Assembly (NCBI GenBank): GCA_946184615.1
Contig: CAMHFN010000010.1
Coordinates: 1 to 64,000, forward strand
From: an uncultured Bacteroidales bacterium
Lineage (GTDB): Bacteria > Bacteroidota > Bacteroidia > Bacteroidales > F082
Direction: 5' to 3'
Length of the DNA: 64,000 nt
In this document: positions 9,864 to 62,223 of the stretch, piece by piece
Numbering within the stretch: the first letter of the stretch is position 1
Layout: every line of letters starts with the position of its first letter
Program-made: the position numbers and the translations under genes
The notes under the pieces: model-generated
Seen by the model: the letters and a program-made list of their open reading frames with translations, nothing else
The model's database searches: none
Told to the model about the DNA's origin: nothing

Positions 9864-9891
9864 CTTCTTACTTCTGTATTCTATATTCTAA
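9864..9891 (+). repeat. Heptanucleotide-period array between sufB and sufC
   Basis: Four consecutive degenerate 7-mers (CTTCTTA, CTTCTGT, ATTCTAT, ATTCTAA) begin at the base after the sufB stop and end 5 bases before the sufC ATG. One of a family of 7-nt-period arrays in this window. It leaves no obvious ribosome-binding site for sufC. Confidence 0.7.
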
Positions 9892-9896
9892 AAACT

Positions 9897-10649
9897 ATGT
9901 TACTAAATATCAAAAACTTACATGTATCCGTCGGAGGAAAGGAAATCCTGAAAGGATTGAATCTCGGCGTCAACGAAGGTGAAGTCCACGCCATCATGGG
10001 CCCCAACGGTACGGGCAAGAGCACTTTGGCAGCGGCCATCACGGGTCGTGAAGGCTATGAAATCACCGAAGGCGAAATCTGGTACAAAGGCAAGAACATC
10101 GTGGGCATGTCGCCCGAGGACCGTGCCAACGAAGGCATCTTCCTTAGTTTCCAGTATCCTGTGGAGATCCCAGGCGTGAGCATCCAAAATTTCATGCGTA
10201 CTGCCGTCAACTCCAAACGTGAGTATCTGGGGCTTCCCGCTTTGTCCACCATCGAATTCATGAAAATGATGAAGGAGAGGCAAGCCATGGTGGAAATCAC
10301 CGAAAAGCTTCAGAACCGTTTTGTCAACGTGGGCTACTCCGGTGGTGAGAAAAAGAAAAACGAGATCTTCCAGATGGCCATGCTGGAACCCAGCCTTGCC
10401 ATTCTCGATGAGACCGACTCGGGTTTGGACATCGATGCCCTGCGTATCGTGGCCAATGGGGTCAACCAGCTGCACACCAAAGACAACGCTTTTGTGGTGA
10501 TCACCCACTACCAGCGGCTTCTCGACTACATTGTGCCTGACTTCGTACATGTCATGTACGACGGACGCATCGTCAAGTCAGGAGGCAAGCATCTTGCCCT
10601 TGAGTTGGAGGAGAAAGGCTACGAATGGATTAAGGAAATGAACCTGTAA
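9897..10649 (+). CDS. sufC: SUF ATPase SufC
   Basis: 250 residues, an ABC-type ATPase without membrane domains that drives the conformational change of SufBC2D. Walker A is GPNGTGKSTL (near residue 38), the Q-loop region FLSFQYPVEIPG is SufC-like, the signature is YSGGEKKKNEIFQ, Walker B with D-loop is LAILDETDSGLDIDAL and the switch His lies in VVITHYQRLL. The YSGGEKKKNEI signature separates SufC from transporter ATPases. Its stop overlaps the sufD start by one base (TAATG). Confidence 0.97.
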   Translation: MLLNIKNLHVSVGGKEILKGLNLGVNEGEVHAIMGPNGTGKSTLAAAITGREGYEITEGEIWYKGKNIVGMSPEDRANEGIFLSFQYPVEIPGVSIQNFMRTAVNSKREYLGLPALSTIEFMKMMKERQAMVEITEKLQNRFVNVGYSGGEKKKNEIFQMAMLEPSLAILDETDSGLDIDALRIVANGVNQLHTKDNAFVVITHYQRLLDYIVPDFVHVMYDGRIVKSGGKHLALELEEKGYEWIKEMNL

Positions 10650-11485
10650 TGCGCGTTGCGATGGATTTACTTGAAAACAATATTGTAGTCGAAAGCGGGC
10701 AGTACCGGCAGATCGTGTTGTCGGACGACACGGAGCATCTTCAGGCCAACGAGGAGCATTGCGACATCGTGGTCAAGGAGAACGCCTCCTTGGAGATGTA
10801 CCGCATCCAGAACCTCGATGACACGGCTCATCTGAAGACCCATATCCACATCCATCAGGAGCGTGACAGCCGGGTGCATTTCGTAGTCATCAGCTTCAAT
10901 GCCGGCGACCTTCGAAACAGCATCACGGTCGATATCGACGGTGAGGGCTGCGACACCCAAGTGTATGGCTTGTATCTTGTGGATAAGAAACAACATGTCG
11001 AGAACTTTCTGAAGATCAATCATAATGTGGCGCATTGTACCAGTGACACCCGCTTCAAAGGCATCATGGATGATGAAGCCTCGGCGGTGTTCAACGGTCA
11101 TGTGTATGTGGCTCCTGGAGCGCAGAAGACCGACGCTCAGCAGAACAACGCCAACATCATCCTGACTTCCACGGCGAAGATCGACACCAAGCCGTTTTTG
11201 GAGATTTATGCTGACGATGTGAAGTGCTCGCACGGTACTTCTACTGGACAGCTCGACCAGGAAGCCATGTTCTACATGCGGCAGCGTGGCATCAGCCAAG
11301 CCAATGCCCGGATGTTGCTGATGTATGCCTTTGCCGCTGAAGTCAGCAACCACATCAAGATCGACAGTTTGCGCGATACTATCGAGGACATGATCAAGCG
11401 CCGCCTGCGTGGCGAGCTCTCGAGTTGTGACCGTTGTGTGTTACATTGCAAAAACCCAAAAGGATTAACCGCCCCACAGGGGTAA
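10649..11485 (+). CDS. sufD: SufD, short form with cysteine-bearing tail
   Basis: 278 residues. SufD pairs with SufB and SufC in the cluster-assembly complex. The beta-helix core is present (NGHVYVAPGAQKTDAQQNNANIILT), as is the C-terminal signature DVKCSHGTSTGQLDQEAMFYMRQRG with the conserved CSH histidine. The usual N-terminal helical region of about 130-170 residues is absent; many SufD proteins are 400-450 residues. The C-terminus adds LSSCDRCVLHCKNP, with three cysteines in a CxxCx3C pattern. The start is the ATG overlapping the sufC stop; a second in-frame ATG at 10661 is possible. No frameshifted N-terminal remnant can fit, because sufC abuts directly. Confidence 0.88.
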   Translation: MRVAMDLLENNIVVESGQYRQIVLSDDTEHLQANEEHCDIVVKENASLEMYRIQNLDDTAHLKTHIHIHQERDSRVHFVVISFNAGDLRNSITVDIDGEGCDTQVYGLYLVDKKQHVENFLKINHNVAHCTSDTRFKGIMDDEASAVFNGHVYVAPGAQKTDAQQNNANIILTSTAKIDTKPFLEIYADDVKCSHGTSTGQLDQEAMFYMRQRGISQANARMLLMYAFAAEVSNHIKIDSLRDTIEDMIKRRLRGELSSCDRCVLHCKNPKGLTAPQG

Positions 11486-11522
11486 TAGCTCATAGGCCAA
11501 GGCAACGCCTTGGGGATTTGAA

Positions 11523-12731
11523 ATGGATATTAACGAAATAAGAAAACAGTTCCCCGTTTTGGACCAGCAGGTCTATGGTAAGCCCTTGGTTTATCTCGAC
11601 AATGCCGCGACCACCCAGAAACCCCTCTGTGTGATCGAGCGGGAGCGCGACTATTACCTTCACGAGAACTGCAACATCCATCGTGGGGTGCATTACCTTA
11701 GCCAGATGGCCACCGAGGCTTACGAACACGCCCGCCAGACCGTGGCTCGTTTTATCGATGCCAAGGAATCGCATGAAATCGTTTTCACAAGAGGAACCAC
11801 CGAGTCGTTGAATTTGTTGGCGTCTTCTTTGGGTCAATTGATGTCGCCTCAAAAAATCCTGATCACCGCCATGGAACACCATTCCAACCTTGTTCCTTGG
11901 CAGCAGATGGTGCAGCGATGTGGTGGACAACTTCTCGTGGCTCCGATGGACGACAAGGGTGTGCTGGACCTGCAAGCTTACGAAGACTTGCTGAAGCAAG
12001 GCCCTCAGATTGTGGCCATGGCCCATGTCTCGAACACCCTCGGAACGGTGAATCCCGTGAAGGAAATGATACGTTTGGCCCATCAGTATGGTGCGATTAC
12101 GGTGGTCGATGGTGCCCAATCGATCGCTCACTTGCCTATTGATGTGCAGGACTTGGACTGCGACTTCTTCGTGTTCTCCGGCCATAAGATGTATGCTCCC
12201 ATGGGCATCGGTTGTTTGTTTGGTAAGACCGAGTGGCTCGAGAAGATGCCGCCTTACCAGTTCGGTGGCGAGATGGTCGATACCGTGAGCTTCGAGAAGA
12301 CTACCTTTAATAAATTGCCCTTTAAGTTTGAGGCAGGTACGCCCAATGTGGGTGCCGCCTTGGGTTTGGAGACCGCCATCCAGTTTTTGGAGCATCTGGA
12401 TCGCAAAGCGGTGGAAGACCATGAAAACCTGTTGGTAAAAACCACCATGGAGAAGCTTTCGGCGATTGTGGGTATGCATTTCGTCGGCCAAGCCCCTGAG
12501 CATAGTGGCCTGGTGAGTTTCATCATTGACGGCATCCATCCCTACGATCTTGGCACCATTATTGACAAGATGGGCGTGGCCGTCCGCACCGGTCACCATT
12601 GCGCCGAGCCTGTGATGACCCGTTTCGGCATCCCTGGTACGGTGCGTACCTCGTTCGCTTTGTATAACACGTTGGAAGAGGTGGATGTGTTGGTGAAGGC
12701 AGTGACACGTGCCGCGAATATGTTGAGGTAA
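11523..12731 (+). CDS. sufS: Cysteine desulfurase SufS
   Basis: 402 residues, a class II (group II) PLP-dependent cysteine desulfurase that supplies persulfide sulfur to SufE. Signatures: LVYLDNAATTQKP at the N-terminus, TRGTTESLNLLASS, VVDGAQSIAH, the PLP lysine in FVFSGHKMYAPMGIG, and the active-site cysteine in RTGHHCAEPVM near the C-terminus. The start ATG at 11523 leaves a 37-base gap after sufD. It feeds the downstream sufE. Confidence 0.96.
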   Translation: MDINEIRKQFPVLDQQVYGKPLVYLDNAATTQKPLCVIERERDYYLHENCNIHRGVHYLSQMATEAYEHARQTVARFIDAKESHEIVFTRGTTESLNLLASSLGQLMSPQKILITAMEHHSNLVPWQQMVQRCGGQLLVAPMDDKGVLDLQAYEDLLKQGPQIVAMAHVSNTLGTVNPVKEMIRLAHQYGAITVVDGAQSIAHLPIDVQDLDCDFFVFSGHKMYAPMGIGCLFGKTEWLEKMPPYQFGGEMVDTVSFEKTTFNKLPFKFEAGTPNVGAALGLETAIQFLEHLDRKAVEDHENLLVKTTMEKLSAIVGMHFVGQAPEHSGLVSFIIDGIHPYDLGTIIDKMGVAVRTGHHCAEPVMTRFGIPGTVRTSFALYNTLEEVDVLVKAVTRAANMLR

Positions 12732-12752
12732 GAAGACAGAAGTAAGATTATA
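12732..12752 (+). repeat. Heptanucleotide-period array between sufS and sufE
   Basis: Three 7-mers (GAAGACA, GAAGTAA, GATTATA) run from directly after the sufS stop to 2 bases before the sufE ATG. The purine-rich strand is the coding strand, opposite to the array between sufB and sufC. Confidence 0.6.
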
Positions 12753-12754
12753 CT

Positions 12755-14260: not shown

Positions 14261-14288
14261 AATTTTAATTATCAATTCTCAATTAAGT
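14261..14288 (-). repeat. Heptanucleotide-period array spanning a stop codon
   Basis: Four 7-mers (plus strand AATTTTA, ATTATCA, ATTCTCA, ATTAAGT). On the minus strand the array encodes the last residues (LIEN) and the stop of the LicA-like kinase, then continues into the gap before the MIP18 gene. Confidence 0.65.
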
Positions 14289-15129
14289 CTTTCGCCATTC
14301 CTAAGAACATCAATGCCACGGCATTGAAATCCATATTCAAATCCTTGCTCAGGCCAACCCTGTCTTTGAAGATGGCCACGTTGTACCATTGCAGGCATTG
14401 GAAGGCGCGGTGGAAGTAGAGGCGATGCAGCTCGTCCTCGGTGGGTTTGTGGCCCACGTAGCATTCCAGCAGGGCCAAAGCCTTGTCGAAGCCTGCGTTA
14501 CCGTAACAGGCGATGTCGTAGAAGGGGTCGTTCATGCCGGCAAATTCCCAGTCCAACACGTAGAGCTTGTCGCCGCTGATGACGAGGTTGGTCGGCTGGT
14601 AGTCGCAGTGGCAGGGCACCATTTTTACGCTCTTATAGGCTTTGCGCAAGGCTTCCAGCTTGGCTCTTAAATCAAGATACTCCTGAGGATGCACAAATCC
14701 TGTCTCATGGCAGTAACGTTCGTCGTCATCGAGACGGCCGAAGGCGTTGTAGTCCTTGAATTTCAGGTCGCTGCCATGGATCTTCTTCAGGGCTTTCACT
14801 GACATCTCATTATAGGAAACCACGTCAGTGGTGCTCATGATGGTGCCTTCCACGTATTCGGCCAGCTTTTCACCCGAGAGGATCTCCACGTAGGTGGTCA
14901 CGTTATTGAGGCCGAGGCGGTCCACTTCTTGGATGTTATGCCATTCGTCCACGCGGTCCACGAACTTTTCGGCGAACTTGCCGGGGACGCGGTAGGTGTA
15001 TTTCTTTCCGAGGGCTTCCACCACGTAGGTATAGTTGCTCATGCCGCCTTCGAGGCGCATGACGATGTGGGCTTCTTGCGTGTGTAACAATGCGTTAACA
15101 CGGGCGATGATATATTCTTCGACGTTCAT
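14272..15129 (-). CDS. LicA/choline-kinase-like phosphotransferase
   Basis: About 285 residues with an aminoglycoside-phosphotransferase/choline-kinase fold. The catalytic loop is PCHCDYQPTNLVI (HxDxxxxN) and the metal-binding segment is VLDWEFAGMNDPFYDIA. The N-lobe has LEGGMSNYTYVVEALGKKYTYRVPG. LicA homologues phosphorylate choline or ethanolamine for surface decoration or phospholipid synthesis; thiamine kinase activity is an alternative. The ATG at 15129 is chosen because an in-frame TTG at 15156 lies inside the -7 promoter box. First gene of a minus-strand unit with the MIP18 and DUF1566-like genes. Its last codons derive from a heptanucleotide array. Confidence 0.82.
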   Translation of the reverse strand: MNVEEYIIARVNALLHTQEAHIVMRLEGGMSNYTYVVEALGKKYTYRVPGKFAEKFVDRVDEWHNIQEVDRLGLNNVTTYVEILSGEKLAEYVEGTIMSTTDVVSYNEMSVKALKKIHGSDLKFKDYNAFGRLDDDERYCHETGFVHPQEYLDLRAKLEALRKAYKSVKMVPCHCDYQPTNLVISGDKLYVLDWEFAGMNDPFYDIACYGNAGFDKALALLECYVGHKPTEDELHRLYFHRAFQCLQWYNVAIFKDRVGLSKDLNMDFNAVALMFLGMAKDLIEN

Positions 15130-16079: not shown

Positions 16080-19000
16080 TCACAGTATCCGTTCCCCGTT
16101 TTCCGTTCCTGCCATCGCCCTCACGATCTCCAAGGCCTGCGTCACGGTGCTCACTTCTTTCATGGTGAGGATGAGTTTGCTTTCGGTCTGCTTGAGGGCG
16201 CAGCGTTTGGGATGGCTGATGATGTACTGCATCACCTGATGGTAAGTCTCCGTCTCATAATAAGGCGACTCTTGGTTGCTCACGAAATGGGCAGTCATCA
16301 GATTGTCGCGCAAGGCGATCTTCTCAAAGCCAAGGTCTTTGGCAATCCAGCGTAAACGAACAGTATTGAGCAGGTCGTTGACGGGTTTGGGGATGGGGCC
16401 AAAGCGGTCGATGAGCTGGTCGGTGAACCTCATGAGTCCTTCCTCGGTCTTGATATGGTCGAGCTCGGTATAGAGGCTGATGCGCTCGGCCGTGGAGCTG
16501 ACGAATTCGGAGGGTAGCATCACCTCCATGTCGGTCTCGATGGCGCAGTCGGTGACATAGACCAGTTCTGTCTCTTTGTCGAACAAGTCGGCGAACTCGT
16601 TTTCCTTCAGCTCGGCGATGGCTTCGTCAAGGATCTTATGGTAGGTCTCAAAGCCAATATCGTTGATGAAGCCGCTCTGCTCGGCGCCGAGGAGGTTGCC
16701 GGCACCGCGGATATCGAGGTCGCGCATGGCGATATTGATGCCGCTGCCGAGGTCGGAGAACTCTTCCAAAGCACGGAGACGTTTCTGGGCTTCCTCGGTA
16801 AGGGTGTTCAAAGGTGGCGTCAGCAGGTAGCAGAAGGCCTTCTTGTTGGAACGACCCACACGGCCACGCAGCTGGTGAAGGTCGCTGAGCCCAAAGCGAT
16901 GGGCATCGTTGACAATGATGGTGTTGGCGTTGGGGATGTCGAGACCCGACTCGACGATGGTGGTGCAGAGCAGCACGTCGTATTCGCCAGCGATGAAGTC
17001 GAGCATGATCTCCTCGAGTTTGGAGCCTTCCATCTGGCCATGCGCCACGGCGACGCGGCAGCCAGGCACGTAACTCAGGATCATGTCATGCACGTCCATG
17101 ATGTTCTGCACCCGGTTATGGATAAAAAACACTTGGCCGTTACGCGACATTTCGAATAGAATGGCTTCACGAATCAATTCGCCATCGAAGGTTCTGAGTT
17201 CGGTCTGCACGGGATAGCGGTTGGGTGGTGGGGTGTTGATGACGCTGAGGTCGCGGGCACCCATCATCGAGAACTGCAAGGTGCGAGGAATCGGCGTGGC
17301 AGTGAGGGTCAGCGTATCCACATTGGCCTTCATCTCCTTGAGCTTCTCTTTCACGGCAACGCCGAACTTCTGTTCTTCGTCGATGATGAGCAGGCCGAGA
17401 TCCTTGAATTTGACGTCTTTCCCAGTAAGTCTATGCGTTCCGATGATGATGTCGATATGGCCTTCTTCCAGCTTTTTCAGGATTTCCTTCTGCTGTTTGG
17501 CCGTCTTGAACCTATTGAGGTATTCGATGTTGACGGGGAAGCCGTCCAAACGGTTTTTGAAGGTCTGGTAATGCTGCAAGGCGAGCACGGTGGTGGGCAC
17601 GAGCACCGCCACCTGTTTGCTGTCGGTGGCGGCTTTAAAGGCCGCACGGATAGCGACCTCGGTCTTGCCAAAGCCCACGTCACCGCAGACGAGACGGTCC
17701 ATGGGGCTCTCTGATTCCATGTCGCGTTTCACGTCGTTGGTGGCCTTGAGTTGGTCGGGGGTGTCCTCGTAGAGGAAGGAGGCCTCAAGTTCCGTCTGCA
17801 AGTAGCTGTCAGGGGCAAACTGGAAACCCTTGCTGCGTTTGCGCTCCGCATAAAGTTTGATGAGCTCACGGGCGATGTCCTTGACTTTGCTCTTGGTCTT
17901 AGACTTCAGGCGGTTCCAGGCATTGGATCCCAAGGTGCTCAACGAAGGTTCGGCGCCATCCTTGGAACTGTATTTTGCGATTTGGTGAAGCGAGTGAACA
18001 CTTATATAGAGTGTATCACCATGATTATAGGTTATTCTCAATACCTCTTGCTCCTTGCCGTGCAGCTCGATGGTCATCAGTCCCTCGAACCGTCCGATGC
18101 CGTGGTCGATATGGGTGACATAGTCGCCAGGCTTCAGGTCGTAGAGGTCCTTGAGGGTGATGGCCTGTTTGGTGCTGAAGTTGTCGCGCAGGTGATAGCG
18201 GTGGTAACGCTCGAAGATCTGGTGGTCGGTGTAGCAGCAGATTTTTTTATCGTGGTCGATGAAGCCAGCATGGATGGCGATGAGCTTCCGCTCGAAATCG
18301 CTATGCAGCTCGTCGTGATGCTGGATGTCGTTCAGGATGGCTTGGATGCGGTCCAGCTGTTTGGAACTCTCCGAGTAGAGGACGATGCTATAGCCCTTCG
18401 ACTTGTAATCGTTGATGTTCTCAATGAGAAGGTTGAAGTTCTTGTTGAAAACAGGCTGCGCCGTCGTATGGAAGATTCTGTCTCCTGTCTCCTGACTCCT
18501 GAATTCTATGGTGTTATGCTCCTCTAAATGCTTCAGCAACTCTTCAGACTTGGCAAACAGTTTACCTGGATTAATATTCTGTCTTCCGTCTTCTGTCTCC
18601 TGACTTCCCAACTTCTCCCACGCTTCCACCGCCCGCTCGTATTCCTTGTCGATTTGTGAGGCAAAGAAATTCATCTGCTCGATCCACACGGTCGTTGAGT
18701 TGGGCAGATATTCCAGTATCGACTCGCGTTCTTCGATGAAGGCCTGTTGCTGCATGTTGGGAAGTAGCACGATGTTGTTGAACCGTTCGATGGAGAGTTG
18801 GCTGGCGATGTCGAAGCTGCGGATGCTGGCCACCTCATCAAAGTCAAATTCAATACGGTAAGGATTGTCGTTGGCGAAGGAATACACGTCGATGATGCCG
18901 CCACGGATGGCGAACTGTCCCGGCTCCACCACAAAATCCACGTTCTCGAAGCCGTATTCGTAGAGCAGGTCGGTAAGGAAATCGAGGTTGATCTTGTCGC

Positions 19001-19470: not shown

Positions 19471-19875
19471 ATGGCAGGAATGTTCAAGCGATTGTATGAC
19501 TCCCCAAAGGTTAGGGAGTTTGTCAGATTTGCCATCGTTGGTCTGATTGCCACAGTTATACATTACGGCATATACTATCTTCTCAATCTGTATATCAATG
19601 TTAATGTTGCCTACACGATCGGCTATGTGGTTTCGTGGTTTGTAAACCTGTATTTGACAGCGCATTTCACATTCAAGAGCGGATTGTCCTTCAAGAAGGG
19701 AGTCGGTTTTGCCCTTTCACACCTCGTCAATTATCTACTGCATATACTTTTCCTAAATCTGTTCCTTGCGTTGGGAGCAACTGAAACAATCGCGCCGCTG
19801 TTTGTGTATGCCGTGGTTGTCCCCATTAATTTTCTGCTTGTTAGGTTTGTGTTTAAGTCAAAAATAAGTTCCTGA
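19471..19875 (+). CDS. GtrA-family membrane protein
   Basis: 134 residues, four predicted transmembrane helices (near 18-38, 44-62, 78-98 and 106-126), the GtrA architecture. The signature REFVRFAIVGLIATVIHYGIY is present at the N-terminus, and the middle reads NVAYTIGYVVSWFVNLYL. GtrA proteins are proposed to flip polyprenyl-phosphate-linked sugars across the inner membrane. Followed after 2 bases by a GtrB-type transferase and then a DUF6056 protein, a three-gene layout resembling phage-derived serotype-conversion cassettes. The N-terminal LYDSPKVREFVRF is typical of Bacteroidota versions. Confidence 0.88.
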   Translation: MAGMFKRLYDSPKVREFVRFAIVGLIATVIHYGIYYLLNLYINVNVAYTIGYVVSWFVNLYLTAHFTFKSGLSFKKGVGFALSHLVNYLLHILFLNLFLALGATETIAPLFVYAVVVPINFLLVRFVFKSKISS

Positions 19876-19877
19876 CC

Positions 19878-20831
19878 ATGAAAAAAATAACTATCCTAAT
19901 CCCTTGCTATAATGAAGCAAAATCGTTATTAATATTGTATGAAGAAATCATCCGTGTTATTTCTGTTTTGAATGATTATACATGGGAGATTTTATGGGTA
20001 AATGATGGCAGCCAAGATGAAACTTTGAAAGTTATCGTTGCATTAAGAGAAAAGGATACACGTGTGTCTTATGTGGATCTAAGTCGCAATTTCGGTAAGG
20101 AAAACGCTCTTCTTGCTGGTCTAGATTATGCGCATGGAGATGCAGTCATCATTATGGATGCCGATATGCAACATCCTCCACAGGTGATTCCTGATATGGT
20201 TCGTAAATGGGAGGAGGGATATGATGATGTCTATGCAAGGCGCAAAACTCGTGGAAAGGAGTCATGGCTGCGAAAAAGGTTAACCCTGTTTTACTACAAA
20301 CTGCTTCAAAGTAGTTCGCGTTTGGATGTGCTTCCCAATGTGGGGGACTTTCGTTTGCTTGATCGTAAATGTATCAACGCACTATGTCAGTTGCGCGAGT
20401 CGGGACGCTATACCAAAGGGATGTATTGTTACATTGGATTCAAGAAAACGGGTGTTGAATTTGATACCCAAGACCGAATTAATGGAGAATCAAGCATGAG
20501 TTTCAAAAAACTGCTAAAGCTTGCTTTGGAAGGGATTACGTCATACACAACGGCACCATTGCGCTGGGCAACTATTGCTGGATTGATGGTTTCTTTATTT
20601 GCCTTTGCTTATATGGTGTTCGTGTTTTTGAAAGCATTGATTTACGGAGATCCAGTGGCAGGTTATCCCACGTTGATTACAGTAATACTGTTTATTGGGG
20701 GAGTACAATTGCTTACTATAGGTATCATTGGAGAATACCTGGCCAAGGTGTTTGTTGAGGTGAAGAACAGACCGGTTTATTTTGTCAGAGAGTATAAGGG
20801 AGAGAACACGAACGAAAACAAACCTGATTAG
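19878..20831 (+). CDS. GtrB/DPM1-like GT2 polyprenyl-phosphate glycosyltransferase
   Basis: 317 residues. An N-terminal GT-A domain has ILIPCYNEAKSL, VNDGSQDET, SRNFGKENALLAGLDYA and the DxD-type IIMDADMQHPP, with GDFRLLDRK in the acceptor region. Two C-terminal helices (about 230-255 and 265-290) anchor it. This family attaches a sugar to undecaprenyl phosphate on the cytosolic face, making the donor that the GtrA protein would flip. Spacing to the GtrA-like gene is 2 bases. The donor sugar cannot be read from sequence. Confidence 0.9.
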   Translation: MKKITILIPCYNEAKSLLILYEEIIRVISVLNDYTWEILWVNDGSQDETLKVIVALREKDTRVSYVDLSRNFGKENALLAGLDYAHGDAVIIMDADMQHPPQVIPDMVRKWEEGYDDVYARRKTRGKESWLRKRLTLFYYKLLQSSSRLDVLPNVGDFRLLDRKCINALCQLRESGRYTKGMYCYIGFKKTGVEFDTQDRINGESSMSFKKLLKLALEGITSYTTAPLRWATIAGLMVSLFAFAYMVFVFLKALIYGDPVAGYPTLITVILFIGGVQLLTIGIIGEYLAKVFVEVKNRPVYFVREYKGENTNENKPD

Positions 20832-20854
20832 AATTGAACAATTGATTTCGAATT

Positions 20855-22411
20855 ATGGGAAAGGATAGATCTTTTTGGCTCAATGCTCTTGCTTTTTCAA
20901 TCATTGTCATTGCATTCTTTATCATCTCATGCTGCGGTTTCCTAATGGGGGATGATTATTGGATGAAGAGTGACGTGTCCACCTTGTTTGACTTGGTTAA
21001 ATATACTGGAGCGTTTTATTTTAATTATGGCGGACGTCTGTTTTCAGTAGCTTGTCAATATCTGTTTAGCGGGGTGCTCGGTGACCATCGGATTTGGTAT
21101 GCTATTGTGAATACGGCGTTTTTCATTTTGTGTATGGTGACTTGCGGGAGGCTGATTAAGGATAAAAAAGAGGGATCCATGTCCGTAGTCTTGTTGTTCG
21201 CTTTATTGTTTTGGTTTTTGTGTCCTGTTCCAAAGAACACCCTGTTTTGGATTGCAGGTTCACCGACTTATATGTGGGCAAACACTTTGTCTTTTGTTTT
21301 TTTGTTGTTTTACCTCAAATATCAGGATGGCAATTTCAGTGGCTCGGGAAAACTGGGGTTGTTTGTCTTGTCTTTTCTAGCAGCTTCTGAATTCATTACC
21401 GCTGCCTCCATTAGCGGTGCTTTCGTGGTATATTATGCATTCAATATCAAGAAACTGAAGGGGAATGCAATTCCTCTGGTGATTGGATTTCTTTTAGGGT
21501 CAATGTTCCTGTTATTTGCACCGGGAAATTTTCGGAGAGCTGCATGGGACCATGGAAGTGCTTCCCTTTTAGATACATGGTATTTGCTGCATCATCCTTT
21601 TGTGGAGATTGTGAAGTATAGGGCCTTATGGATTTTCTTGGCTGTTTTGGTCATAGGGCTGATAAAAAACAAAGGGGCTGTTAAGAATTGGATGAAAAAC
21701 AATGCGATCCTATTGTTGTCGTTGGGATGGAGTGTTATGGCTTGCAGTGTGGTTTTTAGACCGATAAGGCGTGCTTTCTTTTTCACGGAAACGGTGTCGA
21801 TTATCCTGGCTTTGAAGTTATTGTATGATCATTTTGACTTGAAGGGATGGGTTAGAAACGGGGTGATAGGGGTGTTGTTTGTTTTGTTTGCCGTGGATTC
21901 GGTGTTTGCGGTACGTGAAACCATGAGACTGAGAGCGTTTCATGAAGCATCCATGAAAAAGATAATGGATTCGGGAGGGATTGTTGTGTTGGACCAGGCG
22001 CTTTCTTCACATCGAATGGCCTATGCTCCAATTTATGGCTCTCTTACCTCTCGGTATTTGGAAAAAATTTATAATATGGATACCGTTTTTGTTTATCCAT
22101 ACTATTGTCTCGATAAGTATTATCATCAGGATCCTCCTTTGGAGAATGTCTATGTCGCCGATGATTATTATGCGGATGATCCGGACGTTCCTAAGAGCGT
22201 AGTCGTTTTAGTGATAAGGATTGAAGAAGACCGATTGCAAACAGAAGGGGGTCATGTTGTCTTTACCATAAATTGTGATCAACGTGATGAGCCTTTGGTT
22301 TTCGAAAGGCAAGAGCCCAGCTATTGTGTCGGAGGATACGGCTATTATCCGTTTAATTTTGACCGCAATGACGCACGTCATCTGAAACGTGTTCGGTGTG
22401 AGTTTAAATAA
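20855..22411 (+). CDS. DUF6056-like polytopic membrane protein, candidate GtrC-type transferase
   Basis: 518 residues with about ten hydrophobic segments up to residue 350, then a hydrophilic C-terminal domain of about 170 residues. Near the N-terminus is LMGDDYWMKSDVSTLFDLVKY followed by FNYGGRLFS; the acidic pair early in the first external loop is characteristic of GT-C glycosyltransferases and of DUF6056 proteins. Being third after GtrA and GtrB homologues, it is the best candidate for the transferase that puts the flipped sugar on a surface glycan. Specificity is unknown. The segment is visibly AT-richer than flanking mfd and hutU, suggesting acquisition by transfer. Confidence 0.72.
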   Translation: MGKDRSFWLNALAFSIIVIAFFIISCCGFLMGDDYWMKSDVSTLFDLVKYTGAFYFNYGGRLFSVACQYLFSGVLGDHRIWYAIVNTAFFILCMVTCGRLIKDKKEGSMSVVLLFALLFWFLCPVPKNTLFWIAGSPTYMWANTLSFVFLLFYLKYQDGNFSGSGKLGLFVLSFLAASEFITAASISGAFVVYYAFNIKKLKGNAIPLVIGFLLGSMFLLFAPGNFRRAAWDHGSASLLDTWYLLHHPFVEIVKYRALWIFLAVLVIGLIKNKGAVKNWMKNNAILLLSLGWSVMACSVVFRPIRRAFFFTETVSIILALKLLYDHFDLKGWVRNGVIGVLFVLFAVDSVFAVRETMRLRAFHEASMKKIMDSGGIVVLDQALSSHRMAYAPIYGSLTSRYLEKIYNMDTVFVYPYYCLDKYYHQDPPLENVYVADDYYADDPDVPKSVVVLVIRIEEDRLQTEGGHVVFTINCDQRDEPLVFERQEPSYCVGGYGYYPFNFDRNDARHLKRVRCEFK

Positions 22412-25548: not shown

Positions 25549-25576
25549 GAGAGATAAAAGATAAGATATAAAAGTG
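25549..25576 (+). repeat. Heptanucleotide-period array filling an intergenic gap
   Basis: Four 7-mers (GAGAGAT, AAAAGAT, AAGATAT, AAAAGTG) occupy exactly the space between the TGA of the CHU_C gene and the ATG of the DUF1573 gene. Confidence 0.6.
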
Positions 25577-26029
25577 ATGAAGGTTATTAGATTATTGACG
25601 GTAATGGTCTTGGCGGTGTTGATGTGCTCTTGCCATAATAAAGACCAAAAGCTCTCCAGCGATTTGGTGACCAATCCGAAATCGGCAGAGAAATCGACGG
25701 ACAAGGTGCCGGTCATCCAGTTTGAGAAGACGGAGTATGACTTCGGTAAGATTCTTCAAGGCGAAGTGGTGTCCTATACCTTCCACTTTACCAATGCTGG
25801 CAATGTCCCGCTTATCATCACAAGCGTCGACAAGAGTTGTGGTTGCACCGCCGGTGATTACCCGCGTGAGCCGATCGCCCCAGGGGAGCGTGGCGACATC
25901 AAGGTCACTTACGACAGTAAAGGTCACTTTGGGTTCCAGTCAAAAACGGTCGTCGTCAACTCCAACACGATGCCATCGCAAACGGCTTTGCGTATCAAAG
26001 CGGAAGTGAGAACACCGGAACAGTTATAG
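25577..26029 (+). CDS. DUF1573-domain lipoprotein
   Basis: 150 residues. A lipoprotein signal peptide ends in the lipobox LMCSC. DUF1573 occupies about residues 45-145: IQFEKTEYDFGKILQGEVVSY, FHFTNAGNVPLIIT, SCGCTAGDYPREPIAPGERGDI and the final Ig-like strands. DUF1573 is an Ig-like (ASH/HYDIN-related) domain common in Bacteroidota periplasmic and surface proteins; its biochemical role is not established. The ATG at 25577 is chosen over an overlapping GTG at 25574. It sits between a T9SS cargo gene and yajC. Confidence 0.88.
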   Translation: MKVIRLLTVMVLAVLMCSCHNKDQKLSSDLVTNPKSAEKSTDKVPVIQFEKTEYDFGKILQGEVVSYTFHFTNAGNVPLIITSVDKSCGCTAGDYPREPIAPGERGDIKVTYDSKGHFGFQSKTVVVNSNTMPSQTALRIKAEVRTPEQL

Positions 26030-26057
26030 TTAAAAGTTAAAAGTTAAAAAGATAAAC
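26030..26057 (+). repeat. Heptanucleotide-period array before yajC
   Basis: Four 7-mers (TTAAAAG twice, TTAAAAA, GATAAAC) run from the base after the DUF1573 stop to 2 bases before the yajC ATG. Confidence 0.7.
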
Positions 26058-39142: not shown

Positions 39143-40221
39143 AACGACTCGACCGTTACATATTATTCAAGTTTATCGGTACCTTCTTCTTTGCCGTGTC
39201 GATGCTGATGGTCATCATCATCGTATTCGACTTGTCGGAAAACATCGACTCATTCCTCAAGCATGATGCGCCTTGGCAGCGTGTTGCCGTTGACCATTAC
39301 CTGACCTCGATACCCTATTTCACCAATCAGTTTATCCATCTCTTTGCTTTCATCTCCGTCATCTTTTTTACCTCGAAGATGGCCAACCATTCGGAGGTGG
39401 TGGCCGTGCTTAGTAGCGGTGTCAGTTTTTGGCGTTTTCTTTATCCTTACCTGGTGGGGGCTTTTCTGCTCACCATGATGTCACTATATCTCGGCAATTT
39501 TCTTGTTCCCAACATGAACGAAATCAGGAGAAAGTTCAAAGACGAATATATTGAACATCTTACCAAGAGTTCGGGTCGTAATGTTCACCTGCAGACCGAT
39601 AAGGATGAGTTTGTGTATGTGGAGTACTATAATGTGAATCAAGATCTGGGTTATTGCTTTTCCGTGGAGCGCTATAAGAATAACGAGCTGGTTTACAAGT
39701 TGGCGTCGGATGTCATTTATCACGATTCCATTGAACCGCATAAGTGGCGCATCGATTTCATGACAGAACGCACGATTGATGGCGATCGGGAGAGTATCGT
39801 GAATTATCGACGACTTGACACCATTATTGAGAAACTGAGCGCAACGGATTTCTATAAAATGAAGGAAGACTTTGAAGAGATGAATTTCTTTGAGTTGCGT
39901 GACCACATTCGTACGATGCGGCAGCGGGGCACCGAAGGCATCCGCAACTATGAAGTTGAGATGCACCAACGCATGGCGCAGCCCGCGGCCATCCTTATTC
40001 TCACCCTTATCGGAGCGGCCTTCTCCAGCCGGAAAATCAAAGGAGGCATGGGAATGCACTTGGGCTTCGGTATCGCTATTGCTTTTTTATATGTGTTGCT
40101 CGGACAGATAGGAAAGGCCTTTGGCGTGAATGGCGTGATGGCTCCCGTCCTTGCTGCCTGGATCCCCAATGCCATCTACATGGTGTTGGCCATCATCTTT
40201 TTAGCTCGAGCACCAAAATAA
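39139..40221 (+). CDS. LptF/LptG-family permease (YjgP/YjgQ)
   Basis: 360 residues with the LptF/G layout: one or two N-terminal helices (IGTFFFAVSMLMVIIIVFDL), two more near residues 65-120, a periplasmic jellyroll domain of about 150 residues, then three C-terminal helices (AAILILTLIGAAFSSRKIKGG, IAIAFLYVLLGQIGKAFG). LptF/G form the inner-membrane gate that extracts LPS for transport to the outer membrane with LptB. It starts at GTG inside the tgt stop (4-base overlap). The tgt-lptG pairing is frequent in Bacteroidota. Which of LptF or LptG it represents is not decided. Confidence 0.88.
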   Translation: MKRLDRYILFKFIGTFFFAVSMLMVIIIVFDLSENIDSFLKHDAPWQRVAVDHYLTSIPYFTNQFIHLFAFISVIFFTSKMANHSEVVAVLSSGVSFWRFLYPYLVGAFLLTMMSLYLGNFLVPNMNEIRRKFKDEYIEHLTKSSGRNVHLQTDKDEFVYVEYYNVNQDLGYCFSVERYKNNELVYKLASDVIYHDSIEPHKWRIDFMTERTIDGDRESIVNYRRLDTIIEKLSATDFYKMKEDFEEMNFFELRDHIRTMRQRGTEGIRNYEVEMHQRMAQPAAILILTLIGAAFSSRKIKGGMGMHLGFGIAIAFLYVLLGQIGKAFGVNGVMAPVLAAWIPNAIYMVLAIIFLARAPK

Positions 40222-40255
40222 AAATAGAATTCAGAATTCGGAAGGTAGAATTCAG
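40221..40255 (+). repeat. Heptanucleotide-period array after the lptG-like gene
   Basis: Five 7-mer units (AAAATAG, AATTCAG, AATTCGG, AAGGTAG, AATTCAG) beginning at the last base of the stop codon, ending 40 bases before the next ATG. Confidence 0.7.
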
Positions 40256-40295
40256 ATTTTTTATTATTTTCGCAGATTGAAACAATATTAACGTT

Positions 40296-41650: not shown

Positions 41651-42696
41651 CCACCATACCTTCCGCCATAGCATCCTTGCTCTACGACCACGACACCGTT
41701 ATCGTGCCTGGCCTCGGTGCCTTTGTGCGTCATGACCAAAGTGCTCAAGTCAATGTGATTACCAATGAATTTCAATGCCCCTCATCCACGGTAAGCTTCG
41801 ATCCGCAACAACGCGAAGAGAATTCACTTATCAGCACCTTCCTCATGGCTTGCGATGGCTGTTCTGACGAAGAAGCCCGAACCACTATTGTCGCCTTCGT
41901 GAACGACTGCTATAATCGTATCAAAGAAGAAGGCTCAGTGACGCTTCCCGACTTGGGCGTTCTCGGTTTCGACGACCAGCATGACCTCGTGTTTGAAGCC
42001 ATGGACAAGGCTAATTTCAATACTGATGCGTTTGGCCTTAACGATTTTACCCCACAACCGGTGTTTGGAACGGAGAACGGAGAACGTAAAACGGAGAACG
42101 GAGAACGGAACGGCGTAAGCTCTCATCGAACGGAGGGAGGTAAAACGGAAAAGGACGAAGTGGAAGAATCGAGGGAGAAACGGGGGCGTAGGTGGTGGAT
42201 TTGGGTGTTGTTGCTTCTCCTTGCCGCTGCGGGTGTCGCTCTCTGGTATTTCAAGTTCCGTCCCGTGCCCACCAAGCCTTGGACCTATGACTTGAAACTT
42301 CCGGAAAGACCTGTACCTGTCATCCAACGATCCGATACCTTGGTCCGTTCTCAAGACCGTATCGAGGAACCAACTCAAGAGAATACCGCGGAACAGCCAC
42401 CAGCGGAGACCCCAGATAGTCCTTCGGTGGATGCTCCTGTGACTCCAGTGGAAATTATCGTACCAGAAGCCACGTCCAAAGCCTTCATCGTGGGCGGATG
42501 CTTCGAAATTGAACAATACGCCTTGAATATGGCTAATGGGGCCAAAGAGAAAGGTTGTGCCGATGTTTTTGTGATGAAACGTGGGAATCAATATCTCGTG
42601 TGTTACGGACAATATCCTACCACCGCCGATGCCAAAGCCGCATTGCCTGAGATTCTTGCCAACTATAATGAGAAAGCCTGGATTTTGACGAAATAA
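41647..42696 (+). CDS. Membrane protein with HU-like (CCDC81-type) N-terminus and SPOR domain
   Basis: 349 residues. Residues about 1-140 resemble the two HU-like CCDC81 prokaryotic domains seen in Bacteroidota (IASLLYDHDTVIVPGLGAFV; INRIKEEG-like YNRIKEEGSVTLPDLGVLGF). A lysine/glutamate-rich linker includes ENGERKTENGERNG from a heptanucleotide array. One transmembrane helix (WIWVLLLLLAAAGVALWYF) leads to a Pro/Glu-rich spacer and a C-terminal SPOR domain (SKAFIVGGCFEIEQYALNMA ... KAALPEILAN). SPOR domains bind denuded septal peptidoglycan; the N-terminus should be cytoplasmic, possibly linking DNA or other partners to the septum. The start overlaps kdsB by ATGA. Confidence 0.85.
   Translation: MTTIPSAIASLLYDHDTVIVPGLGAFVRHDQSAQVNVITNEFQCPSSTVSFDPQQREENSLISTFLMACDGCSDEEARTTIVAFVNDCYNRIKEEGSVTLPDLGVLGFDDQHDLVFEAMDKANFNTDAFGLNDFTPQPVFGTENGERKTENGERNGVSSHRTEGGKTEKDEVEESREKRGRRWWIWVLLLLLAAAGVALWYFKFRPVPTKPWTYDLKLPERPVPVIQRSDTLVRSQDRIEEPTQENTAEQPPAETPDSPSVDAPVTPVEIIVPEATSKAFIVGGCFEIEQYALNMANGAKEKGCADVFVMKRGNQYLVCYGQYPTTADAKAALPEILANYNEKAWILTK
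42072..42113 (+). repeat. Heptanucleotide array inside the HU/SPOR gene
   Basis: Six 7-mers (GGAGAAC twice, GTAAAAC, GGAGAAC twice, GGAACGG). Three units equal seven codons, so the translation is a 7-residue repeat, ENGERKT / ENGERNG, in the linker before the membrane helix. Weaker related units continue to about 42170. Confidence 0.85.
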
Positions 42697-53173: not shown

Positions 53174-53215
53174 TAATTGTTTAATGTTTAATTGTTGAAC
53201 TGTTTATTTATTGAT
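53174..53215 (-). repeat. Heptanucleotide-period array between the tRNA genes
   Basis: Six AT-rich 7-mers (plus strand TAATTGT, TTAATGT, TTAATTG, TTGAACT, GTTTATT, TATTGAT) between the tRNA-His terminator and the tRNA-Leu promoter. Low complexity makes the phase less certain than in the G-containing arrays. Confidence 0.55.
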
Positions 53216-54528: not shown

Positions 54529-54945
54529 ATGGCAAGAATTATGGCTATCGACTTAGGTAGGAAACGCTGTGGCATCGCAGTTACCGATCCGCTTCAAATC
54601 ATTGCAAACGGCCTCACCACGGTAGAGAGTGGCAAGTTGGCTGACTGGGTGGTGGACTATGTGCGTAACGAGGAAGTGGATGCCATCGTCATCGGTGAGC
54701 CCAAAGACATGCACAACCATCCATCCGATTGTTCCAAATACATAGAGCCTATCGTCAATCGTCTTCGCAAACTGTTGCCTGACATGAAAATCATTCGTTA
54801 CGACGAGCGTTTCACCTCGGTCATGGCTCACCAAACCATGATTGATGCTGGCTTGAAAAAGAAACAACGTCAGGATAAGGCATTGGTGGATGCGGTTGCG
54901 GCCACCATCTTGCTTCAATCCTATTTGAGTTCAGTGAAAAATTAA
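54529..54945 (+). CDS. ruvX: Holliday junction resolvase-like protein RuvX/YqgF
   Basis: 138 residues. RNase-H-fold nuclease acting on pre-16S rRNA 5' ends or Holliday junctions. MAIDLGRKRCGIAVTDPL carries the first catalytic aspartate and the GxKRxGIA motif; VIGEPKDM, IIRYDERFTSVMAHQ and KDKALVDAVAATILLQSYL-like RQDKALVDAVAATILLQ complete the active site. The ATG at 54529 lies just after the promoter. The final codons lie in a heptanucleotide array. Confidence 0.94.
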   Translation: MARIMAIDLGRKRCGIAVTDPLQIIANGLTTVESGKLADWVVDYVRNEEVDAIVIGEPKDMHNHPSDCSKYIEPIVNRLRKLLPDMKIIRYDERFTSVMAHQTMIDAGLKKKQRQDKALVDAVAATILLQSYLSSVKN

Positions 54946-54960
54946 GAATTTAGAATTAAG
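54940..54960 (+). repeat. Heptanucleotide array across the ruvX stop codon
   Basis: Three units (AATTAAG, AATTTAG, AATTAAG); the first contains the last codon and TAA stop of ruvX. Confidence 0.65.
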
Positions 54961-54977
54961 AGGCATATTACATTATT

Positions 54978-55544: not shown

Positions 55545-55549
55545 AAAAG

Positions 55550-55577
55550 AATTTATAATTAATAATTTAGAATTTAG
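55550..55577 (+). repeat. Heptanucleotide-period array after def
   Basis: Four clear units (AATTTAT, AATTAAT, AATTTAG twice) with a likely fifth (AGAAAAG) before them, starting 5 bases after the def stop and ending 14 bases before the next ATG. Confidence 0.7.
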
Positions 55578-55591
55578 AGAGGGTAAGATAT

Positions 55592-57612: not shown

Positions 57613-57647
57613 AAAATTTAGAATTTGGAATTTGGAATTTAGAGATT
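57613..57647 (-). repeat. Heptanucleotide array upstream of metK
   Basis: Five units on the plus strand (AAAATTT, AGAATTT, GGAATTT twice, AGAGATT), ending in a run of T, between the metK promoter and the gldA stop. Confidence 0.7.
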
Positions 57648-57660: not shown

Positions 57661-57681
57661 TAAATTTTAAATTATTAATTC
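57661..57681 (-). repeat. Heptanucleotide array across the gldA stop codon
   Basis: Plus-strand units TAAATTT, TAAATTA, TTAATTC. On the minus strand they supply the last codon (N) and the TAA of the gldA-like gene. Confidence 0.5.
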
Positions 57682-58586
57682 TTCGTAAGTTTCTGGAAGG
57701 CTTCCTCGATACTGATGTCTTCTTTCTGCAAAGTTTTGATAATCAAGCCGTTGTTTACCGACCAGTGCATGAGGTTGGCGCGGATGTCGATCTCGCCTTC
57801 GGGTTCGATGATCCAGTGGTTGTTTTTCACGCGTTGCACTTTGGATACTTGTGGGATGCTGAGGAGTTGGTTTTGGGAGACTTCGCTTTCAAACTCCACG
57901 ATGACCACGTTGGCGGTGGTATTGACTTGTTTTAAGTTTTCAATTTGGTCATCGGCTACCACAACACCTTTATTAATAATAATGGCGCGTTCGCAGATGG
58001 CTTCCACTTCCTGCATGATGTGGGTGGAAAGAAGCACGGTTTTTTCCTTGCCGAGGCTGGAGATGAGGTTGCGGATGTCAACGAGTTGGTTGGGGTCAAG
58101 GCCCGAGGTGGGCTCGTCGAGGATGAGCACTTGTGGATCGTGCATCATGGCCTGTGCAAGTCCCACGCGTTGGCGGTAGCCTTTGGAAAGGGCTCCGATT
58201 TTCTTATGTGCTTCGGGCTGGAGGCCGGTTTCTTCAATCATCGCATCGATGCGGTTCTTGGCGGCTTTGCCTTTCAATTGGTGGATCCCGGCGATGAATT
58301 CGAGATATTCGCGTACGTACATATCGAGATAGAGGGGGTTGTGTTCGGGCAGATAACCCACGATACGCTTCACTTCCATGGGTTGTTTGATAACGTTGAA
58401 GCCGTTGACGCTTACCGAACCCGAGGTGGGAGGGATGAAGCTGGTGATGATTTTCATCAAGGTGGATTTGCCTGCTCCGTTGGGGCCGAGCAATCCCACA
58501 ATCCCCTTGTCAATGCTTAGAGTGACATCGTTTAGAGCGAGTTGCTCGCCGTACCTTTTGGTGATATTTTGGATCTCGATTGACAT
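57675..58586 (-). CDS. gldA: GldA-like ABC transporter ATP-binding protein
   Basis: 303 residues. Walker A GLLGPNGAGKSTLMK, Q-loop GYLPEHNPLYLDMYVREYLEF, signature LSKGYRQRVGLAQAM, Walker B VLILDEPTSGLDPNQ, switch STHIMQEVEAIC. The LPEHNPLY segment and the C-terminal domain of about 85 residues match GldA, the ATPase of the GldAFG exporter needed for gliding in Flavobacterium but present in many non-gliding Bacteroidota. GldF/GldG are not adjacent, so the physiological role is open. The substrate is unknown. Confidence 0.85.
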   Translation of the reverse strand: MSIEIQNITKRYGEQLALNDVTLSIDKGIVGLLGPNGAGKSTLMKIITSFIPPTSGSVSVNGFNVIKQPMEVKRIVGYLPEHNPLYLDMYVREYLEFIAGIHQLKGKAAKNRIDAMIEETGLQPEAHKKIGALSKGYRQRVGLAQAMMHDPQVLILDEPTSGLDPNQLVDIRNLISSLGKEKTVLLSTHIMQEVEAICERAIIINKGVVVADDQIENLKQVNTTANVVIVEFESEVSQNQLLSIPQVSKVQRVKNNHWIIEPEGEIDIRANLMHWSVNNGLIIKTLQKEDISIEEAFQKLTKN

Positions 58587-60525: not shown

Positions 60526-60546
60526 CCCTTAAGCAACAATAATCCT

Positions 60547-61539: not shown

Positions 61540-61561
61540 TTCATTGACGGGATTCGATGAT

Positions 61562-61592
61562 AAAAAGGCTGGCCGCGAGGTCAGCCTTTTTT
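61562..61592 (+). terminator. Terminator after tsf (bidirectional)
   Basis: Stem AAAAAGGCTG / CAGCCTTTTT with a 10-base loop and flanking A and T runs. It ends the ribosomal operon and, from the other side, the atp/PPTase operon. Confidence 0.9.
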
Positions 61593-61608
61593 GTTACCGA
61601 TAGACACC

Positions 61609-62202
61609 TCAAAAGATGCGTGTATGGGTAGCGATGGAATAGGCGTATCGTTTTTCGTTATTGACAAAAGTTGTTACGTGCTCGTCACCAAGTAACAACT
61701 CATGGAGATCGTGGGTAATCCCCGTCCCCCTTAATTTGAATACCGCCTCTTTCTTGGTCCAATATTCGGTGAAGGTTCTGATGGGATCACCACTCTCTTG
61801 GATGATGCGCCGTTCCTCTTCGTTCATGGTGTAGCGCAAAAGACTATCGCTGGCTTCCCGATAGCTCTCAATGTCAATGCCTATGGGTTGATCGGAAACC
61901 ACTACGGCGATGCCGTTTTTGCAGTGGCTGAGATTGAAATGCACGTCAGGATGGTCTCTTAAGAATGGCTTGCCGTGCTCGTTATATCCAAAGTGGAATG
62001 GATGTGTGAGGCCTTGTCGTTCAAGCATCTCTCGGAGCATTACATAGGATTTGAGACAGGCAAATTGCCCGAACAAGTGCTTGTAGCCCAATGCTTCTTC
62101 GCGGCGCTCCTCCGAAACCAAAGGCAACAATCGTTGAATCTCCTCTTCGGAAATCACCGCCATGTTATCAAATACATAGACCTCTATTCCCAAATAATCC
62201 AC
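61609..62202 (-). CDS. 4'-phosphopantetheinyl transferase superfamily protein
   Basis: 197 residues, Sfp-like in outline though short. It attaches the CoA phosphopantetheine arm to carrier proteins. Motifs: HFNLSHCKNGIAVVVSDQPIGIDIESY (Mg-binding D and E) and FTEYWTKKEAVFKLRGTGI (WxxKEAxxK). The GTG at 62202 gives an N-terminus (YLGIEVYVFDNM) resembling Bacteroidota homologues; an internal ATG at 62163 would remove the first strand. It follows atpG after 14 bases, which are a heptanucleotide array. Confidence 0.87.
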   Translation of the reverse strand: MDYLGIEVYVFDNMAVISEEEIQRLLPLVSEERREEALGYKHLFGQFACLKSYVMLREMLERQGLTHPFHFGYNEHGKPFLRDHPDVHFNLSHCKNGIAVVVSDQPIGIDIESYREASDSLLRYTMNEEERRIIQESGDPIRTFTEYWTKKEAVFKLRGTGITHDLHELLLGDEHVTTFVNNEKRYAYSIATHTRIF

Positions 62203-62223
62203 TTCCCGTTCTCCGTTTAATGA
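62203..62223 (-). repeat. Heptanucleotide array between atpG and the PPTase gene
   Basis: On the minus strand CATTAAA, CGGAGAA, CGGGAAG: the first unit holds the atpG stop and the array abuts the GTG start of the PPTase gene. The CGGAGAA unit equals the unit repeated inside the HU/SPOR gene. Confidence 0.6.

Follow-up and report, generated by a model that had tools for sequence, protein, structure and literature searches.

A stretch of 64,000 nucleotides at the start of contig CAMHFN010000010.1 from an uncultured Bacteroidales bacterium (assembly GCA_946184615.1), hereafter the window, raises the question of whether the short, degenerate arrays of seven-nucleotide units scattered along it form a genuine repeat family and, if so, what makes and keeps them. 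A first-pass annotation of the sequence had listed at least 17 such heptad arrays and stated that its view would fall if period 7 were no stronger than periods 6 or 8 in shuffles, or if gene ends were not enriched. The window is contig C10 of a genome of 2.34 Mb (60 contigs, 79% complete), of which 1.25 Mb, namely the window plus 1.19 Mb of further sequence, was scored for self-similarity at lag k (+1/-2, cut-off 12). Lag 7 yielded 74 segments, versus 7, 20 and 6 at lags 6, 8 and 9, respectively, and 0.0 in three dinucleotide-preserving shuffles performed separately within each genic or intergenic piece. At least half of the length is intergenic in 52 of the 74 segments, while intergenic DNA makes up 9.6% of the sequence. 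Tandem Repeats Finder assigned period 7 to 13 of its 28 rows for the window, and three sibling genomes are also rich in this period, with 27 arrays in 180 kb of one and 21 and 22 arrays in 140 kb each of the others. The heptad arrays are real, in the window and beyond, and period 7 far exceeds periods 6 and 8.

Each listed site in the window was assessed by a lag-7 test with local shuffling (lowest attainable p 0.003) and by a unit-profile score in bits. Since a profile fitted on the same 74 arrays would be circular, a new one was trained on the 69 arrays located outside the window. With this profile, 12 sites in the window scored at least 14 bits, while 20 shuffles yielded 0.65 such sites on average and never more than 3. 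The list of 17 stands in part. Its sites at 9864, 12732, 18474, 18574, 25549, 26030, 40221, 42072, 54940, 55550, 57613 and 57661 fit the profile with at least 13.8 bits, although at 25549, 42072, 55550 and 57661 the profile alone expects 0.25–0.7 false matches per window and it is the lag test (p 0.003–0.020) that carries them. Three further sites (14261, 16089 and 53174) have lag-7 support only, the last of them with mixed spacing, the site at 51637 has no period-7 support (lag-7 p 0.22, profile -0.9 bits) and that at 62203 is marginal (lag-7 p 0.04, profile -2.4 bits). These failures are what speaks for regarding the arrays as chance, an assembly artefact or purine-rich intergenic DNA mistaken for repeats; with 74 segments versus none in the shuffles, and with arrays present in many other genomes, the likelihood of this explanation is practically nil.

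The units of different arrays were thought merely to share a purine-rich character, a description that had to be corrected: nearly all of them are variants of one genome-wide pattern. The phase- and strand-free profile of the 74 own-genome arrays reads T T C/T T N N C/A (TTYTNNM / KNNARAA), 73 of the 74 score above 0, and the commonest units are TTCTGTC, TTCTTAC, TTCTAAA and TTCTCCG. Three exact TTCTNNM units followed by TTCT (hereafter the TTCT pattern) occur 29 times in the 1.25 Mb, versus 0 for the period-6 and period-8 versions, 1 and 0 for permuted versions and 4 for the pattern written backwards. In the three siblings, 15–19% of array pairs have units at most one substitution apart, versus 4–6% when units are permuted. 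Several unit types occur side by side in one genome. Units are more similar within than between genomes (difference 0.026, permutation p 0.0005), also when the own genome is left out (0.016, p 0.005).

Sibling species, represented by one genome each, reveal how the arrays change. In the same gap, the unit may be kept with a change of 7 or 14 nt, another unit may be found, or the array may be absent. The closest pair, G042 and G074, shows this at short range: of 27 arrays, 12 have no alignable ortholog and the remaining 15 could be aligned; the unit is shared at 12 of these 15 sites, and the length changes, as read from the alignments, comprise seven of 7 or 14 nt and two others, one of 1 nt at an array edge and one of 3 nt in an adjoining T run. 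In the wider comparison, at least one orthologous site could be aligned for 75 of the 162 arrays, giving 203 site comparisons. The unit was kept, inverted cases included, in 7/14 comparisons with flanks at least 90% identical, in 17/39 at 85–90%, 18/73 at 80–85%, 5/55 at 75–80% and 3/22 below 75%; for the same classes no array was called in 3/14, 15/39, 33/73, 20/55 and 13/22, some of these calls being weakened arrays. The sufB–sufC-type gap is a good example: with flanks 80–87% identical, it holds AGTTAGG-type units in G074 and AGATAAA-type units in G042, and in G028 a unit of AGAATTA type, which is akin to the own-genome unit but lies in the opposite orientation. Within arrays, adjacent units differ by 0.90 bases, versus 1.24–1.26 for other pairs, and mismatches peak at unit positions 5 and 6 (49 and 50 of 197 adjacent pairs). 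Whole-unit length changes, likeness of neighbours and differences concentrated at positions 5 and 6 are the marks of slippage. The proposal of a slippage-driven process, part of the original interpretation, is supported by the first two of these observations.

Most arrays were also said to lie directly after or across stop codons. Based on simple gene calls made in this analysis, in which stops are surer than starts, 57 own-genome arrays touch a gap; a stop is available for 50 of these, and in 42 of the 50 the array edge lies within 10 nt of it, versus 25.8 expected under random placement. For starts the corresponding count is 18 of 48, with 21.6 expected. Gene 3' ends are thus enriched in the own genome, so that neither of the two outcomes named as refuting in the first-pass annotation is seen. 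The pool of four genus genomes contains 144 arrays, 108 of them in gaps and 36 outside any gap (30 inside a called gene, 6 at edges). Convergent gaps are the densest, with 122 arrays per 100 kb of gap, followed by co-directional gaps with 86 and divergent gaps with 22. Of the 75 arrays in co-directional gaps, 59 are purine-sense, with the purine strand as the mRNA strand (p 6e-7), and 54 of these 59 touch a stop codon or sit within 10 nt of it; of the other, pyrimidine-sense arrays, 13 of 16 lie within 10 nt of the next start, short gaps blurring both classes. Arrays contain a stop codon in 52 purine-sense cases versus 11 in the opposite orientation. When arrays with near-equal distances or purine content near one half are excluded, and those nearer one boundary of a simple open reading frame by at least 20 nt are counted, the purine strand faces outward at stops in 36 cases and inward in 4. 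Among the 144 arrays, stop codons on the purine strand block all three reading frames in 60 and two frames in 49, and the pyrimidine strand closes none in 66. An array landing on a C-terminus in purine orientation thus usually ends the protein, and clean protein ends in this orientation would account for the stop overlap and for the rarity of arrays in divergent gaps, where promoters lie. Orientation and position may be explained by such tolerance, with no dedicated function needed. A filter acting through Rho and operon structure, which predicts longer gaps for pyrimidine-sense arrays, was rejected: median gap lengths are 73 nt for purine-sense and 38.5 nt for pyrimidine-sense arrays, a non-significant difference (p 0.22) that tends in the opposite direction.

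Convergent gaps differ from the others in another respect. An inverted partner lies within about 80 nt of 12 of the 23 arrays in convergent gaps, versus 4 of the 85 in other gaps (p 6e-7). Stems of at least 16 bp (at most two mismatches) are found in 15 of 21 array-bearing convergent gaps shorter than 200 nt, versus 20 of 130 array-free ones. In G028, an inverted pair occupies the place between convergent genes where G042 has a terminator-like hairpin of 21 bp. Between G042 and G074, by eye, the loop separating the arms is exactly inverted at site 175933 and approximately so at site 103992, as expected if inverted arms recombine. As for the transcript-processing signal also proposed in the first-pass annotation, the long stems and the position of the G028 pair, judged from sequence, favour a putative 3' hairpin role for this subset of arrays.

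Taken together, we lean towards the view that these are degenerate heptanucleotide repeats maintained by slippage, gained and lost rapidly, filtered by coding constraint and in some cases serving as 3' hairpins. The 7- or 14-nt steps would be the product of replication slippage, an error to which units of 7 nt are especially susceptible, and coding constraint would decide where arrays survive. A purine-sense array would end the protein cleanly at its C-terminus, as the purine strand usually carries stops in two to three frames, and convergent inverted pairs may act as two-way 3' hairpins, either terminators or stabilisers of mRNA. Several results weigh against this view. It does not explain the source of the unit shared among the new and existing arrays of a genome. 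Under simple local slippage, arrays of two units should far outnumber those of four, and unrelated loci should have unrelated units. The lag-7 excess is nearly flat across score bins (25, 15, 14, 17, 26, 22 and 11, from a score of 7 upwards), and 24% of own-genome array pairs have consensus units at most one substitution apart, versus 7% for column-permuted units. Outside arrays, ten units are hardly enriched (0.96–1.3 fold) and no lag-7 signal stands out, so that no pool of seeds is seen, and a ubiquitous single-copy motif was rejected as the array seed. Coding constraint meets difficulties as well. At starts, the simple open reading frames of the genus give 7 purine-outward cases versus 9, i.e., no orientation rule, and the proposal that the purine strand always faces away from the gene, which holds at stops (36/40), was rejected as it fails there (7/16). 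The 30 of 144 arrays inside called genes are divided 14 to 16 between orientations. Finally, at 80 loci of other Bacteroidota no stop preference is seen (15 arrays nearer a stop, 18 nearer a start), which limits the stop claim to the genus, and the outward orientation of purines is weak (22/33, p 0.08; 21/30, p 0.04 when the four nearest loci are left out). Only the depletion of divergent gaps recurs at these loci, with 23 versus 48–52 arrays per 100 kb.

Some of these observations would fit a selected nucleic-acid element, either a 3'-end signal or a platform on purine-rich mRNA or on DNA, with each 7 nt bound by one protein domain. Under such selection the shared unit would mirror the preference of the protein, in line with the single pattern of 73/74 arrays, and arrays of three to five units are about as frequent as shorter ones; strand bias at stop codons and hairpins at convergent ends point the same way. 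However, sibling gaps often have the unit replaced or absent, arrays within called genes lack orientation bias and several unit types coexist within one genome, and we consider selection of this kind unlikely, if far from negligible.

Dispersal by copying, that is, template switching at short homology or gene conversion from existing arrays followed by slippage, would directly explain why the unit is shared. Besides the greater likeness of units within genomes and the flat size spectrum of the lag-7 excess, it is consistent with unit swaps where gap flanks are 89–95% identical and with the inverted loops between array arms. But shared runs of at least three identical units link 17 pairs of arrays, versus about 12.7 expected (p 0.09), and with unit order thus not shared in significant excess, block copying between arrays was rejected; copying in the broader sense strikes us as quite improbable. 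We are still more doubtful of a process that takes 7-nt steps, is lineage-specific, specifies sequence and writes blocks of three to five units at the gene ends of Bacteroidota, with one unit dialect per genome.

How far the arrays extend was examined with the TTCT pattern, overlapping matches in one array being counted separately. It was found in 25 of 60 genomes. Within the genus its distribution is patchy, from none in 15 of the 36 members (own genome included) up to 168 in G010, and outside the genus it was found in 4 of 24 genomes. The absence of the TTCT unit does not mean the absence of arrays, as shown by G011, which has 4 matches to the pattern and five lag-7 arrays in 100 kb, mostly made of other units. 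Judged by SufB, the closest relatives that carry a name are assemblies of uncultured Bacteroidales/Bacteroidia (L081, isolate RUG13092, and L082, both at 95% identity), presumably of rumen type, as their isolate names suggest. Across the 80 named sufB-region loci from many Bacteroidota, 64 arrays were detected at lag 7, versus 6, 8 and 22 at lags 6, 8 and 9; 22 of the 80 loci have at least one array, and units vary from lineage to lineage, with CAGTTNT units in L121, for instance. In this Bacteroidota sample, the period of 7 is thus a general trait, and each lineage has its own word. Arrays longer than 100 nt with mixed units such as CTCACNC and GTCACNC were also noticed in other Bacteroidota (L106 at about 19368, L089 at about 2342 and 18522, L100 at about 11564). 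A reservoir in phages was also considered and set aside: in viral contigs both the TTCT pattern and its backwards control have matches, at least among those listed, and these do not bear on the question either way.

The patchy distribution bears on a more specific mechanism, in which a telomerase-like reverse transcriptase with a short repeat template, as in DRT10, writes repeats into the chromosome. The own genome has UG26-type and retron-like enzymes, and among 36 genus members those with a strong match to RVT_1 (any type, E < 1e-20) have at least 20 matches to the TTCT pattern more often than those without (8/13 vs 3/23, Fisher p 0.006), an association confounded by descent because the species are related. 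On the other hand, G010, with its 168 pattern matches and 84% completeness, has no RVT_1 match, and three genomes with a strong match have no TTCT pattern, two of them (G024 and G037) carrying UG26-like enzymes. The 420 nt before and the 250 nt after the UG26-like gene were inspected by eye at 10 loci, and no heptad template was seen. Writing into chromosomes is not mentioned for DRT10 in the accessible part of PMC12632851. We regard this mechanism as very improbable. The two enzymes of the own genome are a UG26-type defence-candidate reverse transcriptase (L077:8489-9847, contig C13) and a retron-like reverse transcriptase (L045:11073-12251, contig C2). Of the interpretation offered in the first-pass annotation as a whole, slippage is thus retained, and no support emerged for the alternative of a templated process, no heptad template having been seen beside the UG26-like gene at the 10 loci and no significant excess of shared unit order having been found; its statement that no equivalent had been described for Bacteroidales was too strong, for reasons that involve the known heptad systems.

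In heterocystous cyanobacteria, short tandemly repeated repetitive (STRR) sequences are heptanucleotide tandem arrays of several unit types and are known as insertions in the RNase P RNA. A similar insertion was sought here and rejected: RNase P RNA was matched in 53 genomes, and none of the 30 loci examined has an array inside the RNA; six of the 30 have a lag-7 stretch (score at least 10) elsewhere in the locus. G-rich repeats of seven nucleotides have been described in Xanthomonas (GGGAATC, GGGANTN) and in Nostoc (GGGGA(C/T)T) by Rehm et al. (2015, PMC4692102). Xanthomonas genomes contain more than 180 short, partly degenerate arrays each, mostly of four units with conserved and variable positions. 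They are rare between divergent genes, many lie near or across stop codons on the sense strand, and arrays between the same genes differ in length and sequence from one related species to another; an inverted pair is shown, stable neighbourhoods are reported, and the authors link the repeats to G-quadruplexes (PMC4692102). The arrays described here share the sense-strand proximity to stops and the depletion of divergent gaps, in the genus for both and beyond it for the depletion only. Unlike those G-rich, quadruplex-forming repeats, the unit profile KNNARAA has no G run, though a few single arrays do, a comparison made at the level of sequence; in addition, siblings often have another unit type in its place, and inverted pairs are concentrated in convergent gaps.

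Within Bacteroidota themselves, TAACTGA direct repeats have been reported from five Bacteroidetes, along with marine Beggiatoaceae and Cyanobacteria (MacGregor 2015, PMC4679880). They are dispersed and intergenic, mostly in 2–6 copies with few repeated variants, and in the main species mostly lie just upstream of starts (PMC4679880). Reverse-complemented and rotated, TAACTGA reads CAGTTAT, which resembles the CAGTTNT units of L121. In contrast to that fixed word, the arrays studied here have other units and no preference for starts (18/48 within 10 nt, 21.6 expected). Since Xanthomonas and Nostoc share most of the anatomy and TAACTGA repeats are reported in five Bacteroidetes (PMC4692102, PMC4679880), the statement that no equivalent is described was too strong. 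More generally, Mrazek et al. (2007), as described in PMC4679880 and PMC4692102, surveyed long simple repeats, of which heptanucleotides were the commonest class in most genomes, and to whom the proposal of polymerase slippage for 7-nt units is credited there; the ten genomes richest in repeats of 5–11 nt, as described in PMC4679880, include no Bacteroidota. In the literature searched, the TAACTGA paper (PMC4679880) is the only one found to treat heptad arrays in Bacteroidota, and we met no mention of a lineage-specific word across Bacteroidota, of word replacement between siblings or of a concentration of inverted pairs in convergent gaps.

Set beside phase-variable contingency loci, with their clean, length-variable arrays in promoters or frames of surface genes, the arrays of the window are short and degenerate, and several adjoin housekeeping genes, e.g., sufB, mfd and metK. 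The array at 9864–9890 (23.9 bits, lag-7 p 0.003) follows the sufB-like gene and precedes the next ABC ATPase gene; its purine strand is the minus strand, its units are of the AGAATAT/AGAAGTA type and the gap differs in siblings. The plus-strand array at 12729–12746 (19.5 bits, lag-7 p 0.11), which contains the stop codon of a class V aminotransferase gene, likewise lies in a gap whose orthologs differ in siblings. Two weak stretches follow: one at 14261–14290, without strand assignment, at the 3' end of an APH/choline-kinase-type gene (lag-7 p 0.007, profile 7.8 bits), where G074 and G008 have a sequence of 15 nt, and a minus-strand array of CCGTTYT type at 16089–16110 in the last codons of mfd (lag-7 p 0.017, profile 6.2 bits), with a similar stretch at the orthologous site of G042. 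The listed sites 18474, 18574 and 42072 are well within called genes. The first two correspond to minus-strand arrays in the mfd coding sequence, at 18478–18502 (lag-7 score 15, 19.2 bits) and 18577–18607 (21.3 bits). Orthologs are variable at the first; at both, relatives have arrays of differing units, other elements or none, and at the second, siblings show CTCACTC-type units, other elements or no array. Of 30 rows of mfd orthologs, 18 are readable (12 are empty as anchors were missed), and an array is visible by eye in 10 of the 18. Matches to the mfd protein break near residues 300–308 in at least 25 of 99 genus genomes, some of the breaks perhaps being contig ends. In mfd of G042 (L201) and G008 (L203/L204), in-frame CATCCC...GGGATG palindromes replace the heptad arrays at both variable sites. 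A dispersed CATCCC/GGGATG element was considered and discarded, with only three such palindromes in 1.25 Mb of the own genome.

Further downstream, plus-strand arrays lie directly 3' of the stop of a type IX secretion (CHU_C) protein gene (25549–25574; 14.8 bits, lag-7 p 0.020), at the stop of a DUF1573 gene, with three AGTTAAA units (26028–26049; lag-7 score 15, 23.7 bits), and at the stop of an LptF/LptG-type gene (40221–40256; 21.4 bits, lag-7 p 0.010). A six-unit GAACGGA array lies at 42068–42109 on the plus strand (lag-7 score 23, Tandem Repeats Finder score 70), inside the gene of an HU-CCDC81-like protein and 3' of the second HU-type domain, which ends at residue 129. Between two tRNA genes, the minus-strand array at 53174–53214 (lag-7 p 0.007) has mixed spacings of 7 and 8. 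Listed originally as period 7, it scores 8 at lag 7 versus 6 at lag 8, but Tandem Repeats Finder gives periods 8 and 16, and its profile score of -1.0 bits places it outside the heptad unit pattern. It may be compared with own-genome arrays of a second class, with period 8 and units of AACAATTC, AACAATTA and GATTTAAA types. These are among the 20 segments detected at lag 8 in the 1.25 Mb, of which 16 are intergenic over at least half of their length. The remaining plus-strand arrays are at 54940–54961, across a stop codon with AGAATTA/AGAATTT units (22.3 bits, lag-7 p 0.003), and at 55548–55578, 3 nt past the stop of the peptide deformylase gene (lag-7 score 13, 15.9 bits). Between metK and an ABC ATPase gene, the left arm of an inverted pair occupies 57615–57640 on the plus strand (lag-7 score 16, 20.3 bits) and the right arm, which extends as far as the 3' end of the ATPase gene, 57661–57685 on the minus strand (13.8 bits, lag-7 p 0.010). 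The two arms fold together, and G069 has counterparts of both. Separately from the arrays, three long open frames at 19471–22411 are rejected by the codon-usage model of the genome, i.e., codon use there is atypical, and this segment is perhaps acquired DNA.

A similar anatomy built from units that are not G-rich weakens the G-quadruplex as the general cause of bacterial heptad arrays and points instead to the number seven. The arrays allow testing why polymerases or repair favour 7-nt steps, and the sampled genus members, with about 5–16 arrays per 100 kb and siblings sharing the same gaps, provide many natural replicates. If the 7-nt writing process considered above were real, gene 3' ends, from the stop and the C-terminal tail to the two-way terminator hairpin, would be repeatedly rebuilt from one evolving word. 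For the genus, the arrays represent a simple route to rebuilding gene ends, protein linkers, as in mfd, and 3' hairpins between close relatives.

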